64,000 nt of DNA. It comes from Chloroflexota bacterium. Its GTDB lineage: Bacteria; Chloroflexota; UBA11872; UBA12225. The notes beneath the pieces are model-generated. The model had not been told where the DNA came from, made no database searches, and saw nothing but the letters and a program-made list of their open reading frames with translations. The DNA is taken from NCBI GenBank assembly GCA_030447525.1, contig JAUJOR010000007.1:124001-188000 (forward strand), given 5' to 3'. The position numbers and the translations under genes are program-made. Positions 36,651-47,724 of the stretch are shown one piece after another; the first letter of the stretch is position 1; every line of letters begins with the position of its first letter.

Positions 36651-37173
36651 CCTGCTGGTGCTCCCAGAGCTCCATTCCAGCCGCCAGCGCTCCCATCACT
36701 TTGACCTCAGCGAGTTCGACCACCTGTGGCTCGTCGCCCAGCACGCCCACAGGCTCTCGCGCTACGTCAGGGCGGACGCCCGCACCTGCGCCCGCGCCGG
36801 CCTGTTGCATGACTTGGGGGCGCATTGGTTCAACACGGCGGTACCCTATGCCCTGGCCATGCGCCTGGAGGAGACGCACGGCGTGCGCCACGCCATCAGG
36901 GCCCACACCCTGTTTCCGGAGCTTCCCCGCACGCGAGAGGCCTGGGTAGTGGTCGCCGCCGACTTCCTGACCTCGGCGCAGGAATGCCGGCTCGTCTTTC
37001 GGCGGGCCCGCGATCGCGCCTCGGCCGGCCTGCGCCGGCGTCTGAGTCAGCCAGAGCACCTGCTGACACCCTTACGTACGCTCCCTGGCCGGCGCCCTAC
37101 CGTCCGCTGGCGTCGCCTGACTGCGTCGACCGGGCGCGACGTGCCGGCACGAGGCATCCATGACCAAAGTTGA
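36601..37173 (+). CDS. HD-domain hydrolase, predicted
   Basis: About 190 aa from the GTG at 36601, which has GTGAGG at a suitable distance; a GTG at 36586 is also possible. It overlaps the last 50 bases of the upstream gene. HD-family residues are visible: HAHRLSRYVRADARTCARAGLLHDLG (His, then His-Asp), IRAHTLFPELP (His) and VVAADFLTSAQE (the last Asp). HD enzymes are metal-dependent phosphohydrolases acting on nucleotides. The very basic C-terminus is probably non-core. It overlaps the next gene by 14 bp, so the three genes from 34518 to 38032 are one transcription unit. Confidence 0.7.
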   Translation: MRGQRGQDEHFHLLIDDLLVLPELHSSRQRSHHFDLSEFDHLWLVAQHAHRLSRYVRADARTCARAGLLHDLGAHWFNTAVPYALAMRLEETHGVRHAIRAHTLFPELPRTREAWVVVAADFLTSAQECRLVFRRARDRASAGLRRRLSQPEHLLTPLRTLPGRRPTVRWRRLTASTGRDVPARGIHDQS

Positions 37174-38032
37174 GGGGCAGGTGCCCTGGAAGCACGGGGC
37201 AGCGCTGCTGGAGGAGATCGCCGAGACAACACCGGATACGGGCAGCCTGGCCCTGTGGCACATCGGTCAATCAGGCTTTGTCGTGAAGGCCGGGCGGAGC
37301 ACCCTGGTATTCGATCCATTTCTGGCCCCATCCAGCGAGCGGATGCGCCGGACGTGGGAGCCACCATTCGCGGCCGGAGACCTGACAGGGGCAGACTTCG
37401 TCTTCTGTAGCCATGACCATGGGGATCACCTTGACCCGGTGGCAGTGCAGGGGATCGCCGCTGCCTCGCCGCGGGCACGCTTCATCGCCCCGCCGGCGGC
37501 GCATGGCCGTCTCGCTGCCCTAGGTATTCCACCGCAGAGAATTATCGCCGCCGAAGTGGGTGAGACCCGGTCATACGATGGGCTCACGGTACACGCCGTC
37601 CCCGCGGCTCACGGCGACCTCAGGGACCCGGTGGCGGAATACGTCTGGGAGGCCCATCCAGAGCGTGGCTTCCGCTTCGTCGGCTTCCTGGTAGAGGTCA
37701 ACGGCGTTCGCCTCTACCACGCCGGAGATACGACGATCTACCCTGGCATGGTCGATCGTCTCATCCCTTTGCGACCCGATCTCGCCCTGATCCCGATCAA
37801 CGGACGCGACTGGTTCCGCGAGCGCCAGGGGATTATCGGCAATACCGATGCCCGTGAGGCGGCCGACCTAGGCCATGCCATCGGAGCGGACGTGATCGTC
37901 CCGATGCACTACGACATGTTCGCCGGCAACCCGGGCAAGCCGGGCTGGTTTGCCGAATATTGCGCCGAGACGTACCCGGAGCAGGGTTTTCATGTCCCGG
38001 CCCGGTGCAAGCGCTGGCGGTACACGAAGTAG
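37160..38032 (+). CDS. Metallo-beta-lactamase fold hydrolase, UlaG-like
   Basis: 290 aa. Motifs: LALWHIGQSGFVVKAGRSTLVFDPF, the metal loop FCSHDHGDHLD, RLYHAGDTTIYPGM with the bridging Asp, and the final His in VIVPMHYDMFAGNPGKPGWF. The order and the His-Tyr-Asp near the end resemble L-ascorbate-6-phosphate lactonase (UlaG). No ula sugar-phosphotransferase genes are nearby, so the true substrate is probably another lactone or phosphodiester. It is coupled to the HD gene by overlap, and a hairpin at 38042-38076 ends the unit. Confidence 0.85.
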   Translation: MTKVEGQVPWKHGAALLEEIAETTPDTGSLALWHIGQSGFVVKAGRSTLVFDPFLAPSSERMRRTWEPPFAAGDLTGADFVFCSHDHGDHLDPVAVQGIAAASPRARFIAPPAAHGRLAALGIPPQRIIAAEVGETRSYDGLTVHAVPAAHGDLRDPVAEYVWEAHPERGFRFVGFLVEVNGVRLYHAGDTTIYPGMVDRLIPLRPDLALIPINGRDWFRERQGIIGNTDAREAADLGHAIGADVIVPMHYDMFAGNPGKPGWFAEYCAETYPEQGFHVPARCKRWRYTK

Positions 38033-38084: not shown

Positions 38085-40421
38085 TTACTGCTCCGGTCTG
38101 AAGCCCCGCTGGGGACGCCGCGCGCGACGGCGCTGCCCTGATGCCGGGCCGGGGCCGCGCTGCACTCCCCCGCCATCGCTCCCCGAGAAGTCCCCCTGGC
38201 GGCGGTTAGGGTTTCCCCCCTGGCCGCCGAGGGGAGGGCCGGAGCTGACCGACCTCCCTAGAGAGCGGTAGCCTCCGGCACCCGGCCCGGCCTGCTGCCG
38301 GCCATAGCCCCCACCCCCAGACCGCCAGCCGCGGTTGCCCATCCTGGCCTGTTCCTGCAGCCTTTGCAGATCCTGTGGCGACTTGCCGAGGGCACGGTAT
38401 CCGGAGGTCGGCCGGGGCCCGGTGGAATCGTAGCTACCATAGCCCCCACGCCGGTCGTAGCCCCCCTGACCACCCGGGGCGCCGCGGTCGTAGCCCCCCT
38501 GTCCGCCGCGGTCGTAGCCCCCCTGGCCACCCGGGGCGCCGCGGTCGTAGCCCCCCCGACCGCCCCGGTCGTAGCCCCCCTGGCCACCCGGGGCGCCGCG
38601 CCGGTCGTAGCCTCCCTGGCCACCCGGGACGCCGCGATCATAGCCCCGCCGACCGCCCCGGTCGTAGCTGCCCGAACTCCCCTCGCCCCCGCGGCCCCCA
38701 CGGTCGAATCCCCCTTGATCGCCCCGGCCGGGTGGACGTCCGCCCGATCCCTGGCTGCCCCGGGCGTCTCGCCAGCCACCGGGAGCGGGCGAGGGACGAT
38801 CGCCGCGTGGCGTGCCTGCTTGTGGCGCACGGGGATAGCCGGGGCCGGCACCACCACGAGGGGGCCGCGCCGATGGGGCCTGGCCCCCGCTGGGTGCCCC
38901 CATCCCGGCGGTGCCCGTACCAGGTCCACCCAAGGCGGGGACACCCGTTCCGGGACCTCGCCGGCGGCGACGACGCGCCCCCGGGAGGCGTGCATCGGCC
39001 GCTCCCCCCTCCACGCCCTCAGGGGCGAGCTGGGACGTGGATTGCACGTCGCCAGTCTGTCTGCCGGGCTGACGCCCCTCCAGCGGGGGAGCCAGTCCCT
39101 CCGGTGAAGCAGGCTCGACGATCGAGGTGGCCGTGCCCGCGGCCATAGGTCCTGGGCCGATGTCTTCCACGGTGTCTATGGTCGTGGCCGCGCCCGCGGC
39201 GCTGGGGCCCGGACCGAGATCCTCCACGGTGTCCATGGCCGCGGCCGCGACCTCCGGCACCGGCTGGCTGGCATCTGCCGGCGGCGCCCGGCGCGACCGC
39301 CGGCGGGGCGCCGGGCTCATTCTCGTTTCGGCCCCTTCGCCGGCCTCCGCTATCGTCGGAACACCGGCCGCTGCCATCTCGGGGCCGCCCATCCCTGCGG
39401 CTGCCGATGAGACGGTATCAACCGGCGGCGCGGGCGGCGCCGCAGCCGGGGTAGAGACGGCGTCACCGAGCGCGGCATCAGGAGACGCCGCACCCTCCGG
39501 CCCGGTCACGGATGAGGCGCGGCGGACGCGTCTTGGACGTGCCTCTCGCCCGGTTGCCGGGGCGGCCGCGGGCGCGGCGGATGCGGTCTCAGCCGTGGCC
39601 TGAACGTCGACCCGGTCCGGGGCGTCCGCTGGGAAGACGGCACCCGGCGTGGCCGGCACGCCCGCCTCGGCCGGCTGGGCTGGGGCGATTGATGGCTCTG
39701 GAGTGACCGCGTCGCCGGTGCCCAGCGCCTCAGCAGCTGGGACCCCGGCGCGGGCCCGGCGCGGCCGTGCCGGCCGAGACGGCGCCGGGGCGTCAGCCCC
39801 GGTATCGGCGTCGTCGACGTCCGCGCGGCTGCGCCGCCGTCGTGCCGGGGTGGCCGGGGCCGCTGGGGCGGCGCCCGCGTCCACGGCGGCCAGGGCATCG
39901 GCAACGCTCTGACCACCGGACGCCGGCTCGGCGAGCGCCAGAGCGGACTCGGTCGGGGCCGTGTCGGGATCTGGAGTCGCCGCCACACGGGCGCGCCTGC
40001 GGGGCCGTGTGGCCGGAGTTGGCGCCCCGTCTGCCGCTTGGGAGGTGGTGGACTCAGGGACCCCCTCAGGGGCGGCGGCCATCGGCGCGGGAGGGGCAGC
40101 GCCGCCTGCATCGTCGCCCTGAGTGGTGGCTGGCGTGGCAGCAAGTCGGCGGCGGGGCCGGCGAGGGGCCGGAACGGCGGGGGCCTGCTCGACTCCCCCG
40201 TTCTCACTCGCTGCCGTGCCCTGGCCGGCGGCGCCCTCCTGGCCGGCGACGTCAGGCTCGGCGGCGGCGGCGACACCGTTGGTCATGGACGCCCCATCGG
40301 TCAAGCTGCTGGCAGCAGGCCGCCGGCGCGGCCGGCGCGATGCGCCGGCCGGGGGAGGTGCATCAGCCTGTGCGGTAGACGCTTCAGTTTGCACTGCTGC
40401 GTCAGTGGAAGAGTCGCTCAC
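38085..40421 (-). CDS. Large intrinsically disordered protein with basic patches and YDRG/RGG-like repeats
   Basis: 778 aa, GTG start at 40421 with a good GGAGG five bases before it. No folded domain is visible. The first 500 residues are Ala/Pro/Thr/Glu rich with eight regularly spaced Arg clusters (RRPRRRP, RRPRRRL, RPRRRAR and similar, every 40-60 residues). A tandem repeat TVEDLGPGPSAAGAA / TVEDIGPGPMAAGTA lies in the middle. From about residue 600 there are eight YDR units in GGYDRGAPGGQ-type repeats and a Gly/Arg/Gln tail ending RRRARRPQRGFRPEQ. This composition is that of RGG-box RNA-binding, phase-separating proteins. RNA or DNA binding is inference. No translation-factor or helicase domain is attached. 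Confidence 0.75.
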   Translation of the reverse strand: MSDSSTDAAVQTEASTAQADAPPPAGASRRPRRRPAASSLTDGASMTNGVAAAAEPDVAGQEGAAGQGTAASENGGVEQAPAVPAPRRPRRRLAATPATTQGDDAGGAAPPAPMAAAPEGVPESTTSQAADGAPTPATRPRRRARVAATPDPDTAPTESALALAEPASGGQSVADALAAVDAGAAPAAPATPARRRRSRADVDDADTGADAPAPSRPARPRRARAGVPAAEALGTGDAVTPEPSIAPAQPAEAGVPATPGAVFPADAPDRVDVQATAETASAAPAAAPATGREARPRRVRRASSVTGPEGAASPDAALGDAVSTPAAAPPAPPVDTVSSAAAGMGGPEMAAAGVPTIAEAGEGAETRMSPAPRRRSRRAPPADASQPVPEVAAAAMDTVEDLGPGPSAAGAATTIDTVEDIGPGPMAAGTATSIVEPASPEGLAPPLEGRQPGRQTGDVQSTSQLAPEGVEGGAADARLPGARRRRRRGPGTGVPALGGPGTGTAGMGAPSGGQAPSARPPRGGAGPGYPRAPQAGTPRGDRPSPAPGGWRDARGSQGSGGRPPGRGDQGGFDRGGRGGEGSSGSYDRGGRRGYDRGVPGGQGGYDRRGAPGGQGGYDRGGRGGYDRGAPGGQGGYDRGGQGGYDRGAPGGQGGYDRRGGYGSYDSTGPRPTSGYRALGKSPQDLQRLQEQARMGNRGWRSGGGGYGRQQAGPGAGGYRSLGRSVSSGPPLGGQGGNPNRRQGDFSGSDGGGVQRGPGPASGQRRRARRPQRGFRPEQ
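38451..38690. repeat. DNA tandem repeats encoding GGYDRG units
   Basis: Near-identical 33-36 base units built on GGTCGTAGCCCCCCTGG and CCACCCGGGGCGCCG recur about seven times within the disordered-protein gene. They encode the YDRGAPGGQGG repeats. Such repeats can expand and contract, so the repeat number may vary between strains. Confidence 0.7.
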
Positions 40422-40442
40422 GTCGCCTCCAATTCGGCCTAT

Positions 40443-40498
40443 CGTTACGGCGGTCTGCGGTCGTGCCTGGCGTTACGGCGGTCTGCGATCGTGCCTGC
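40443..40498. repeat. 28-bp tandem duplication in the leader of the disordered-protein gene
   Basis: Two copies at 40443-40470 and 40471-40498 (both begin CGTTACGGCGGTCTGCG) differ at only two positions. They end about 21 bases before the start codon on the minus-strand message, close to the ribosome-binding site, where they could form a regulatory structure or protein site. Confidence 0.65.
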
Positions 40499-41043: not shown

Positions 41044-43281
41044 TCAGAGGCGACACTCCGGGCGCGTGATCCGTCCATTATGGCGCACGAAGTCGGCGGC
41101 ACAGGTGTACGCCGGTAAGGGCGTCCCGCTAGGATCGACGACGCCAAAACCGTGGCGCTCGTCAGATTCGGGCCACAGCGACCGGAAGTTGAGATTCCAG
41201 ATGAACACGTGAGAGACGTACGGCGCCTCGTTGTTCAACTGCTCCAGCATGCGGGCAGTGTAGCGTCCGCGCTGCTCCTCGCTGACGTCTTGGCCGAACT
41301 CGTAGCCCGGTACCGAGCGCCGTGTGGAGGACCAGCCAACCTCCGTCAGCCACATCGGCTTGAAGTCGCCGAAGCGCTCTTGCACCTCGCGCAACTGCTG
41401 GTAACGTTTGATGTAAAAGCTGCCGTGCCCTTTGAAGCGCCCGAACGCCGGACTTGATGGAGGCAGGCTATTGCGGTCGATAAAGTCGTCCGGCGGATTG
41501 TTGTACCCGCTGGGGTGAACACCCAGGGCGTCGTAGTACTGCTTGATCTCCCCATTGTTGACGCCGTAGAGGAACTCTAAGTAGAGCCGATCGTCGATGG
41601 CCAGGCGCACGGCGTCGAGGCAGAAGCTCTGGCTGCGAGCCTCCAGATTGCGCCAGCACTCGCCGACGCCGGTTGGGGTGAGGGCCGGCAATATCACGGT
41701 GACGGCGGCGTCGCCGGCCTTGATTCCCTGGTAGGCCGCCTTCTGAAGCTGGACAAACTCCACCACCCCTTGCGGGGGGGCGGCCGGGGCGTTGGGCCAC
41801 AGCCGGGCGCTCCCCCATTCCCAGGACAGGTTCTGCTCGTTCCAGGGCTCGATGGCGCTGACTTTGCCCTTCAATGGGGGATAGCTGACCAGAAACTGCA
41901 GGAAATCGCGCAGCTTTGCCGGGTCGGCCGGGGCGATGCCCTGCGGGGCGGCGTAAAAGGCCGGCGCTCGCACCACGCTGATCATGACGCTAAGACCGGC
42001 GCCCCGGATATCGTCCAGCAGGGCCTGGAGGTCTGTCAGCTGGTTGCGCCAGAAGTACTTGGTCGAGCCGTTGACCTCGGCCTCCAGGCAGTTGGCGCCT
42101 TGCCGCCGACACTCGGCGGCCGTCATCTCGAAGTTGGCCCAGACCAGCTGCTGCTTGACCCAGCCGAACCCGGCGCCAGTTACCAGGGGAACCGCCTGAC
42201 GGCGCAGCGTGGCGTTCTGGAAGTCGCCCTGATATCCGTAGGACAGGGGGATGGTGCGTCGCCCGGCGCTCAGGGCAGGTCTCAGTCTCACCACAGGGGC
42301 TGCTGGGAGGGGCGCATCAGCGCGACCGGCGACGGCGAAACGGACGATGGGGGAGTCGGCAGGCTGCCCCGGAGGATGGGGCTGCACTGAGGGCCCGGCG
42401 AGGATGCCCGTCGCCTTGAGCAGATCGCCACCGAGCACTGCGGTGACGTCGCCGGCCTTGATCCCGGCCGGGCCATCCACGAGCCAGCGTTGAAATGCAA
42501 TGCGCTGGAAGCGCTGGGAAACGAACGGGCCGAAGGCGCCCGGCCGGTTCATCGGCAGGCCACATAGGTCTATCGCCGCCGCCGCGTTGCCGGCGCCGCA
42601 CTGGATGAGGTAGCGCTCATGGATGGATGCGTCCTCCATCCAGCCCAGGCGCGTGTTGACCGCCTCGGCGAACGTGGCGCTCCCGTCGGGCGCGCCGGGC
42701 CCGACGCCGGCCCGCTCCAGCAGAGGATTGACCCCCGCGTCTTGAAGGATCTCGAAGGTGTTCGCCAGGCGGACGCCCTGGCCGGGGCATTGCTGGAGCA
42801 GCAAGACTTGAAACGCCTGGTAGGTACAGCCGTCGCTGGCCGGGAAAGGACTGGACACCGGGTAGCCGGCGATCGATGGCCCGCCGAGAGCGTTGACGAA
42901 GGCAAAAAACGGATCACGGACGTCGAAGCCGGTGGTGGCGCCATCGCCGGTCTGCCGGTAGTGCCGTCCTTGCACCCCCCCGTCCGGGCCGGAGATCGCC
43001 TCTTCCAGGCCATCCTCCGTCACTGCCTCACTCCCGGCGACGGGGGCCACTTCCAACGCTTGAGCCCGCGCTGTAGTCGCCAGAGCCGGCCCGGCGACGA
43101 GCTGTGTCAGGATCATGGCCAGGAGGAGCCAGGGGGCGCCTGCTGTCTGCCCGTAGGCCGCCCGCCGGTACAGTGCAGACGCAATGGAGCGAAGTGGCCG
43201 GCCGGCCGCAGACGCGCTGGAAGTCACAGGTCGATAACTCACTGGTCGTAGTAACGTCGCCGCCGGCCCTTTCGATACGGC
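41044..43281 (-). CDS. Secreted clan GH-A glycoside-hydrolase-like protein, second copy
   Basis: About 745 aa from the ATG at 43281; the frame is open further upstream and the start is not certain. A membrane-export segment, APWLLLAMILTQLVAGPALA, begins near residue 48. The architecture matches the protein at 29414: an N-terminal half with DPFFAFVNALGGPSIAGYPVS-type repeats (about 110-370), then a barrel with GYQGDFQNATLRRQAVPLV, the acid/base in IEPWNEQNLSWEWG and the nucleophile in PMWLTEVGWSSTRR. The barrel has an extra disulfide-like Cys pair (AAECRRQGANCLE). Probably a paralogue with its own substrate. The active-site Glu are both kept, so it should be an enzyme. Confidence 0.78.
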   Translation of the reverse strand, partial: AVSKGPAATLLRPVSYRPVTSSASAAGRPLRSIASALYRRAAYGQTAGAPWLLLAMILTQLVAGPALATTARAQALEVAPVAGSEAVTEDGLEEAISGPDGGVQGRHYRQTGDGATTGFDVRDPFFAFVNALGGPSIAGYPVSSPFPASDGCTYQAFQVLLLQQCPGQGVRLANTFEILQDAGVNPLLERAGVGPGAPDGSATFAEAVNTRLGWMEDASIHERYLIQCGAGNAAAAIDLCGLPMNRPGAFGPFVSQRFQRIAFQRWLVDGPAGIKAGDVTAVLGGDLLKATGILAGPSVQPHPPGQPADSPIVRFAVAGRADAPLPAAPVVRLRPALSAGRRTIPLSYGYQGDFQNATLRRQAVPLVTGAGFGWVKQQLVWANFEMTAAECRRQGANCLEAEVNGSTKYFWRNQLTDLQALLDDIRGAGLSVMISVVRAPAFYAAPQGIAPADPAKLRDFLQFLVSYPPLKGKVSAIEPWNEQNLSWEWGSARLWPNAPAAPPQGVVEFVQLQKAAYQGIKAGDAAVTVILPALTPTGVGECWRNLEARSQSFCLDAVRLAIDDRLYLEFLYGVNNGEIKQYYDALGVHPSGYNNPPDDFIDRNSLPPSSPAFGRFKGHGSFYIKRYQQLREVQERFGDFKPMWLTEVGWSSTRRSVPGYEFGQDVSEEQRGRYTARMLEQLNNEAPYVSHVFIWNLNFRSLWPESDERHGFGVVDPSGTPLPAYTCAADFVRHNGRITRPECRL

Positions 43282-43474
43282 CATCCCTTGCCCGGATGCC
43301 CGGTTGCTCAAGCCTCGCGGCCGGCGCGACCGGGCATCTCGCTGGCAATCTCGGTGGCAATACTGCAAGGGCACTTTAGCCGGTGGTTTCCATGCCTCGC
43401 CGCGGGCAGAGGCTGGGCGCAGCAGAGTAGCCGGGCGCCATGGCCCAAGCCAGGGTCCCTCTTCGGCCCCTGCT

Positions 43475-43524
43475 CTCGAGCACAGCACCTGTTGTCCGGC
43501 AGGACGACGGGTGCTGTGCTCGAG
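43475..43524. terminator. Long near-perfect hairpin between two minus-strand genes
   Basis: A 50-base inverted repeat: 15 perfect pairs starting CTCGAGCACAGCACC, then 8 more pairs including two G-T, closing on the 4-base loop GGCA. It lies 61 bases after the stop of the gene at 43585 and 194 bases upstream of the glycoside-hydrolase-like start. It is longer than a typical terminator and has no T run; it could be a terminator, an RNA-processing site or a mobile-element scar. The rest of the 300-bp gap shows nothing else. Confidence 0.55.
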
Positions 43525-43584
43525 CCGGCATGTCCCATGGCCGGGGGCAGTCGCCACGGGTTATGGCAGCGTTGGGGCCCGCGC

Positions 43585-47259: not shown

Positions 47260-47724
47260 TTACTCTTCCTCCCCTTCTTTGTCGTCTTCTTCGTCCCCGC
47301 CGGTAATGGCGTCCAGCAAGGCGAAGTAGATCGTCTCGAAGCTCTCTACCACCGCCGCCCGCCGCTCGGCATGATTTTCCGGCAGGCCGGTGATGCCGAC
47401 GATCTCCGTCAGCTTGGTAGCGGCCTGGATGATGGCCACCGCCAGGTCGGCGTCCACGTCCTCGAAATCCTCCAGCTCCTCCGGCGGCGCCGGCGGGCGG
47501 CGGTCGCGGTCGAACGGCTGAGGCTCGAAGCCCCGATCGGGGCGCGTATCGGGGCGGCCGGGCGGCCCGCTGCTACGGCGGTCTGGACGCGGCGCGCCAA
47601 AGTCCCCGCGCGGCGGGCCAAAGTCCCCGCGCGGCGGGCCAAAGTCCCCGCGCGGCGGGCCGCCAAGGCCCCGGCCCCGGTCACGGTCAAAATCACGGGT
47701 ATTGCCCCGGTGGCGATCAGCCAT
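47260..47724 (-). CDS. Small protein with GDFGPPR repeats and an acidic helical domain
   Basis: 154 aa from the ATG at 47724, with AGAGGAGA ahead of it. The N-terminal half is disordered and Arg/Gly/Pro rich (RGNTRDFDRDRGRGLGG, then three GDFGPPR units and GDFGAPR). The C-terminal 65 residues look folded and helical: LEDFEDVDADLAVAIIQAATKL, FETIYFALLDAITG, ending in an acidic run. No family is recognised. It is a second protein in this window with an RGG-like disordered part. It follows the HD gene by 50 bp on the same strand, with its own TATACT box upstream. Confidence 0.65.
   Translation of the reverse strand: MADRHRGNTRDFDRDRGRGLGGPPRGDFGPPRGDFGPPRGDFGAPRPDRRSSGPPGRPDTRPDRGFEPQPFDRDRRPPAPPEELEDFEDVDADLAVAIIQAATKLTEIVGITGLPENHAERRAAVVESFETIYFALLDAITGGDEEDDKEGEEE
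47599..47661. repeat. Three perfect 21-bp tandem repeats
   Basis: Units starting at 47599, 47620 and 47641, each AAAGTCCCCGCGCGGCGGGC plus one base. They encode GDFGPPR three times. They are perfect at the DNA level, including third positions, which implies recent duplication or gene conversion. Confidence 0.8.

Follow-up and report, generated by a model that had tools for sequence, protein, structure and literature searches.

The locus and its neighbourhood

The window considered here (the whole stretch of DNA analysed, 64,000 nucleotides in length) carries on its minus strand the gene for a disordered protein of 778 residues (38085..40421), read from a GTG start at 40421 to a TAA stop at 38087-38085, and preceded by a ribosome-binding site, GGAGG (40426..40430, minus strand), recognised from the sequence 4 nt upstream of the start codon. 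Coordinates and length had been given correctly in an earlier note on this DNA, which named no strand; the plus-strand reading of the same interval contains many stops. Directly upstream of the ribosome-binding site, a 28-bp direct repeat is present in two copies that match at 96% (40443-40497), and the regions preceding the orthologs described below show no obvious counterpart. On the opposite side, the gene converges with that of a metallo-beta-lactamase-fold hydrolase (37160..38032, plus strand), a protein separate from the disordered one, whose gene serves as a syntenic anchor. The adjacent conserved genes encode a sugar nucleotidyltransferase/phosphomutase fusion, a phosphodiesterase, an HD protein and this metallo-hydrolase, and none of the neighbouring genes points to RNA or nucleoid biology.

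Other proteins of the window were examined in passing. The interval 41044-43557 (minus strand) encodes a large protein with no Pfam match; its C-terminal half resembles a glycoside hydrolase, and its family is multicopy in these bacteria, with as many as 14 matches in a single genome. Further along, at 47260-47724 (minus strand), lies the gene for a second lineage-restricted RG-rich protein (154 residues), with an Arg/Gly-rich tail, (PPRGDFG)x3, that a 21-bp repeat in the DNA encodes, and a C-terminus that is acidic and probably helical; it has no match in Pfam, and relatives were found in six of nine family genomes (this one included) and in none of the sampled f2, f3 and f4 genomes.

Disorder and arrangement of charge

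The 778-residue protein is composed mainly of Ala (18.8%), Gly (18.4%), Pro (12.7%) and Arg (11.6%), contains 90 Arg for a single Lys, and is devoid of Cys and His. The earlier note had described it as having no folded domain, and this description held: searches of Pfam and NCBIfam returned no match and hence no conserved folded domain, and AlphaFold2 run on the single sequence gave pLDDT values below 50 for 749 of the 778 residues. Following a simple charge-hydropathy index, the Ala-rich first half is borderline and the remainder clearly disordered. The sole element predicted by AlphaFold2 is a helix at residues 682-698, inside the conserved module presented in the next section, and the same helix was obtained in a second AlphaFold2 model, computed from the C-terminal 128 residues together with five orthologs.

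Arg residues are concentrated in eight dense patches within residues 26-492, and in a ninth close to the C-terminus. Patch 1 (RRPRRR, residues 26-37; 40311..40346, minus strand) corresponds to the first RRR patch of all orthologs, whereas patches 2-7 (residues 84-95, 136-148, 190-202, 215-226, 291-304 and 370-381; 39279..40172, minus strand), with Ala/Pro-rich acidic spacers between them, differ in number among genera. Patch 8 (RRRRRRGPG, residues 478-492; 38946..38990, minus strand) is the central Arg patch of the orthologs, and the C-terminal basic patch (residues 761-775; 38097..38141, minus strand) was located by patch scan and ortholog comparison. The eight clusters announced by the earlier note are thus present, and their clustering far exceeds chance, as shuffling of residues 1-492 produced a mean of 0.73 patches and a maximum of four (2000 shuffles). 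Regular spacing, which had also been proposed, is only approximate: the patches are placed more evenly than at random (CV 0.38 versus a median of 0.80 under random placement, P about 0.012), but not strictly so, the gaps ranging from 24.5 to 109.5 residues (in order, 58, 52.5, 54, 24.5, 77, 78 and 109.5).

In residues 1-492, the patches hold 43 of the 47 Arg and only 2 of the 58 Asp/Glu, so that charge is arranged in blocks, and because of the acidic spacers the whole protein is near-neutral, with a net charge of only about +14. Alternating basic and acidic blocks along a disordered chain, a trait of charge-block condensate scaffolds, are therefore found in this protein, and the clustering of its Arg patches supports a build predicted to suit multivalent polyanion binding.

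A lineage-restricted family and its conserved module

Searching other genomes with the full-length protein yielded no matches, a result that reflects low sensitivity rather than absence, and that says little because of the composition of the protein. Synteny was more informative, since in the relatives a disordered ORF of the same kind lies beside the gene of the conserved hydrolase. Orthologs of 272 to 778 residues were found in nine of nine genomes of one family of uncultured Chloroflexota (five genera), and the convergent position beside the metallo-hydrolase is kept in eight of them, this one included; in G004, the metallo-hydrolase lies elsewhere, and the HD gene still adjoins the gene of the disordered protein. 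One of the records (L067, titled 'Thermoflexus hugenholtzii JAD2') carries this family-specific gene with the same neighbours that it has in the lake and groundwater Chloroflexi, and its organism label looks doubtful.

Homologous GTG starts give proteins of 778, 658, 512 and 272-284 residues, all of which have in common an acidic N-terminus, the first RRR patch, the central Arg patch, a Gly/Pro/Arg stretch and the module. The basic C-terminal tail is found in most orthologs, not all, and both the number of extra patches and protein length vary, the short orthologs (272-284 residues) having no more than 3-4 clusters of Arg/Lys and 1-2 Tyr. In a tree of the fusion gene next door (nucleotidyltransferase/phosphomutase), these short forms group as a single clade, and the long forms occur in larger assemblies (5.1-6.1 Mb versus 2.2-3.7 Mb).

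Judging from sequence comparison, the one strongly conserved part of the protein, overlooked by the earlier note, is a module of about 50 residues near the C-terminus (residues 674-724; 38250..38402, minus strand), delimited by profile, orthologs and AlphaFold. Two copies of a short motif (GYRALGKSP and GYRSLGRS) flank the helix at residues 682-698, according to the pattern [YF]R[AS][LI]G[KR]SP[QE][ED][LMI]xR...YRxLGR[SDG]. A profile of the module detects one copy in each of the nine family genomes (five genera), with E values of 5e-17 to 1.5e-27 that include profile members, the profile having been built from these same nine-genome rows. Against 32 other genomes of the class, it gave one match only (E 0.003), which lies in a frame interrupted by stops, and among 400 genomes sampled from the phylum no match beyond the family was better than 1.5e-4; the weak matches that other families gave, with E values from 1.5e-4 to 1e-2, were judged to be noise. 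No match to the module sequence was found in Pfam or among PDB sequences, and a DNA-pattern search of the genome itself for other YRxLGR proteins returned 25 sites versus 21 for the control, with no convincing disordered protein among them. This is an undescribed, lineage-restricted protein family that fits no known family, and no description of such a protein was found in the literature on Chloroflexi. As only about 50 residues align well, the family is invisible to ordinary homology search; it has no Pfam or NCBIfam model, and was recovered by synteny.

Among four genomes of one genus, 2-4 of 50 module residues differ versus 19-21 codons, so that most changes in the module are synonymous, while 21-32% of residues differ outside it. 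With dN/dS values of 0.18-0.36 between these four genomes, purifying selection acts on the protein, most strongly in the module, and since such ratios among relatives are well below 1, the disordered protein is best regarded as translated and under selection, that is, made and used. Could the ORF nevertheless be spurious, or a pseudogene in decay? Long open frames arise readily in GC-rich, low-complexity DNA, and the third-position GC of the gene (0.754) is no higher than that of the first position. Against this, the same gene is present in nine of nine family genomes, with start, module and position kept and with the dN/dS values given above, and a proper ribosome-binding site precedes it. 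Conservation, as read from the sequences, refutes this explanation, to which next to no probability can be given.

Repeats are far less conserved than the module. The YDRG block (residues 586-658; 38448..38666, minus strand), with eight YDR[GR] units, is restricted to this genome. Its DNA consists of a 57-bp unit repeated 3.0 times at 89% match (TRF score 274), with codons that repeat too, in agreement with the near-identical DNA repeats reported before. Ortholog comparison showed, however, that the block is absent from all eight orthologs of the family, and the likeness to RGG/condensate proteins that the earlier note had drawn from its GGYDRG block is not supported in that form. The ortholog of G003 contains a different repeat, (GGGYGPPR)n, on the opposite side of the module. 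A second, 57-bp tandem duplication within the gene studied here (39127-39249) encodes DTVED[LI]GPGPxAAG units.

Proposed function and comparison with known systems

On balance, the protein is predicted to be a cytosolic disordered adaptor or scaffold, whose Arg patches would bind polyanions and whose module would dock a partner. We infer four properties in all, namely polyanion binding, a partner, condensation and the cytosolic location. The basic patches, made of Arg only and spaced by acid-bearing, Ala/Pro-rich linkers, would make multivalent contacts with polyanions, RNA or DNA being the likeliest, and the module may dock one specific partner protein or complex via the two copies of its short motif. 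In the lineages whose genomes are larger, valency would have been raised by additional patches and, in the present protein, by the Tyr/Arg/Gly block, and this may allow condensation with nucleic acid, as in charge-block RNase E tails. Because selection keeps the module and the basic patches (N-terminal, central and, in most orthologs, C-terminal), the job shared by the family looks like docking and polyanion binding. High valency is not conserved, given the few Arg/Lys clusters and Tyr of the short orthologs, and as both numbers are low in these forms, condensation is unlikely as a shared function of the family; by analogy, it is plausible in the long forms.

The condensate scaffold put forward in the earlier note thus stands in part: the protein is selected, enzyme-free, disordered and Arg-patched, but the 'stickers' are not kept in short orthologs. 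One version of it, an RNA-driven scaffold in which Arg patches and YDRG repeats would form droplets that clients enter via the module, is possible, albeit doubtful. The charge blocks resemble the RNase E tail, and Tyr/Arg/Gly-rich regions occur in all three long forms, but each Tyr/Arg repeat is confined to a single genome and none occurs in the short orthologs, and RNase E/G (PF10150) was not detected in the protein, elsewhere in its genome or in those of 12 relatives, with a positive control search. A role as RNase E partner was rejected on the same ground. Rather unlikely is an enzyme-free condensate scaffold specific to this one Chloroflexota family, apparently without RNase E and HU, in which repeat expansion would tune patches and stickers and a bivalent YRxLGR module would recruit a conserved client.

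A nucleoid-associated, histone-like protein, whose Arg patches would coat the DNA, or bridge it, in a lineage without detected HU, seems less likely still. HU/IHF (PF00216) was undetected in 13 genomes of the class (this one, G000, and 12 relatives), several control genomes being positive, and the combination of Arg-rich patches and Pro/Ala spacers recalls the style of H1-like proteins; yet the lack of HU extends over the sampled class as a whole, whereas the disordered protein is confined to one family, and acidic spacers nearly cancel its charge. The PF00216 domain is absent from the protein itself, and a general replacement of HU was rejected, given this mismatch between class and family. 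Returning to the predicted adaptor or scaffold, its orthologs provide a natural series, from 272 to 778 residues and from 3 to 9 basic clusters, for the evolution of scaffold valency with the docking motif fixed, in a bacterial lineage with neither RNase E nor HU detected.

AlgP, an H1-like protein, spaces polyphosphate granules in Pseudomonas (PMC9239181). An AlgP-like organiser of polyphosphate granules, or of another polyanion, is a quite improbable function for the protein described here: basic low-complexity repeats would bind polyphosphate and AlgP offers a precedent by style, but no polyphosphate gene lies nearby, and sequence similarity to AlgP is not demonstrated. Pro/Ala low-complexity basic patches and variable length are common to both; AlgP is Lys-rich, whereas the present protein has Arg instead, a charge close to neutrality and a conserved C-terminal module.

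With eukaryotic RGG/YG-rich condensate proteins (FUS-like low-complexity regions), the likeness is limited to the Gly/Arg/Tyr-rich repeats of the C-terminal third, in this protein only. These repeats are of the YDR[GR] type and private to one genome, RGG/YG-type repeats are not kept across orthologs, and there is no RNA-recognition domain.

In Caulobacter, the disordered tail of RNase E contains alternating charged patches, whose Arg-rich blocks drive RNA-dependent phase separation (PMC12510024, PMC10412687). Unlike this C-terminal tail, which is the BR-body scaffold of Caulobacter crescentus, the 778-residue protein has no catalytic domain, possesses its own YRxLGR module, and no sequence homology between the two was found. 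Both are nevertheless disordered, Arg-rich basic blocks and acidic stretches taking turns along the chain, and the docking of partner proteins by the RNase E tail is what is likewise proposed for the protein of this locus.
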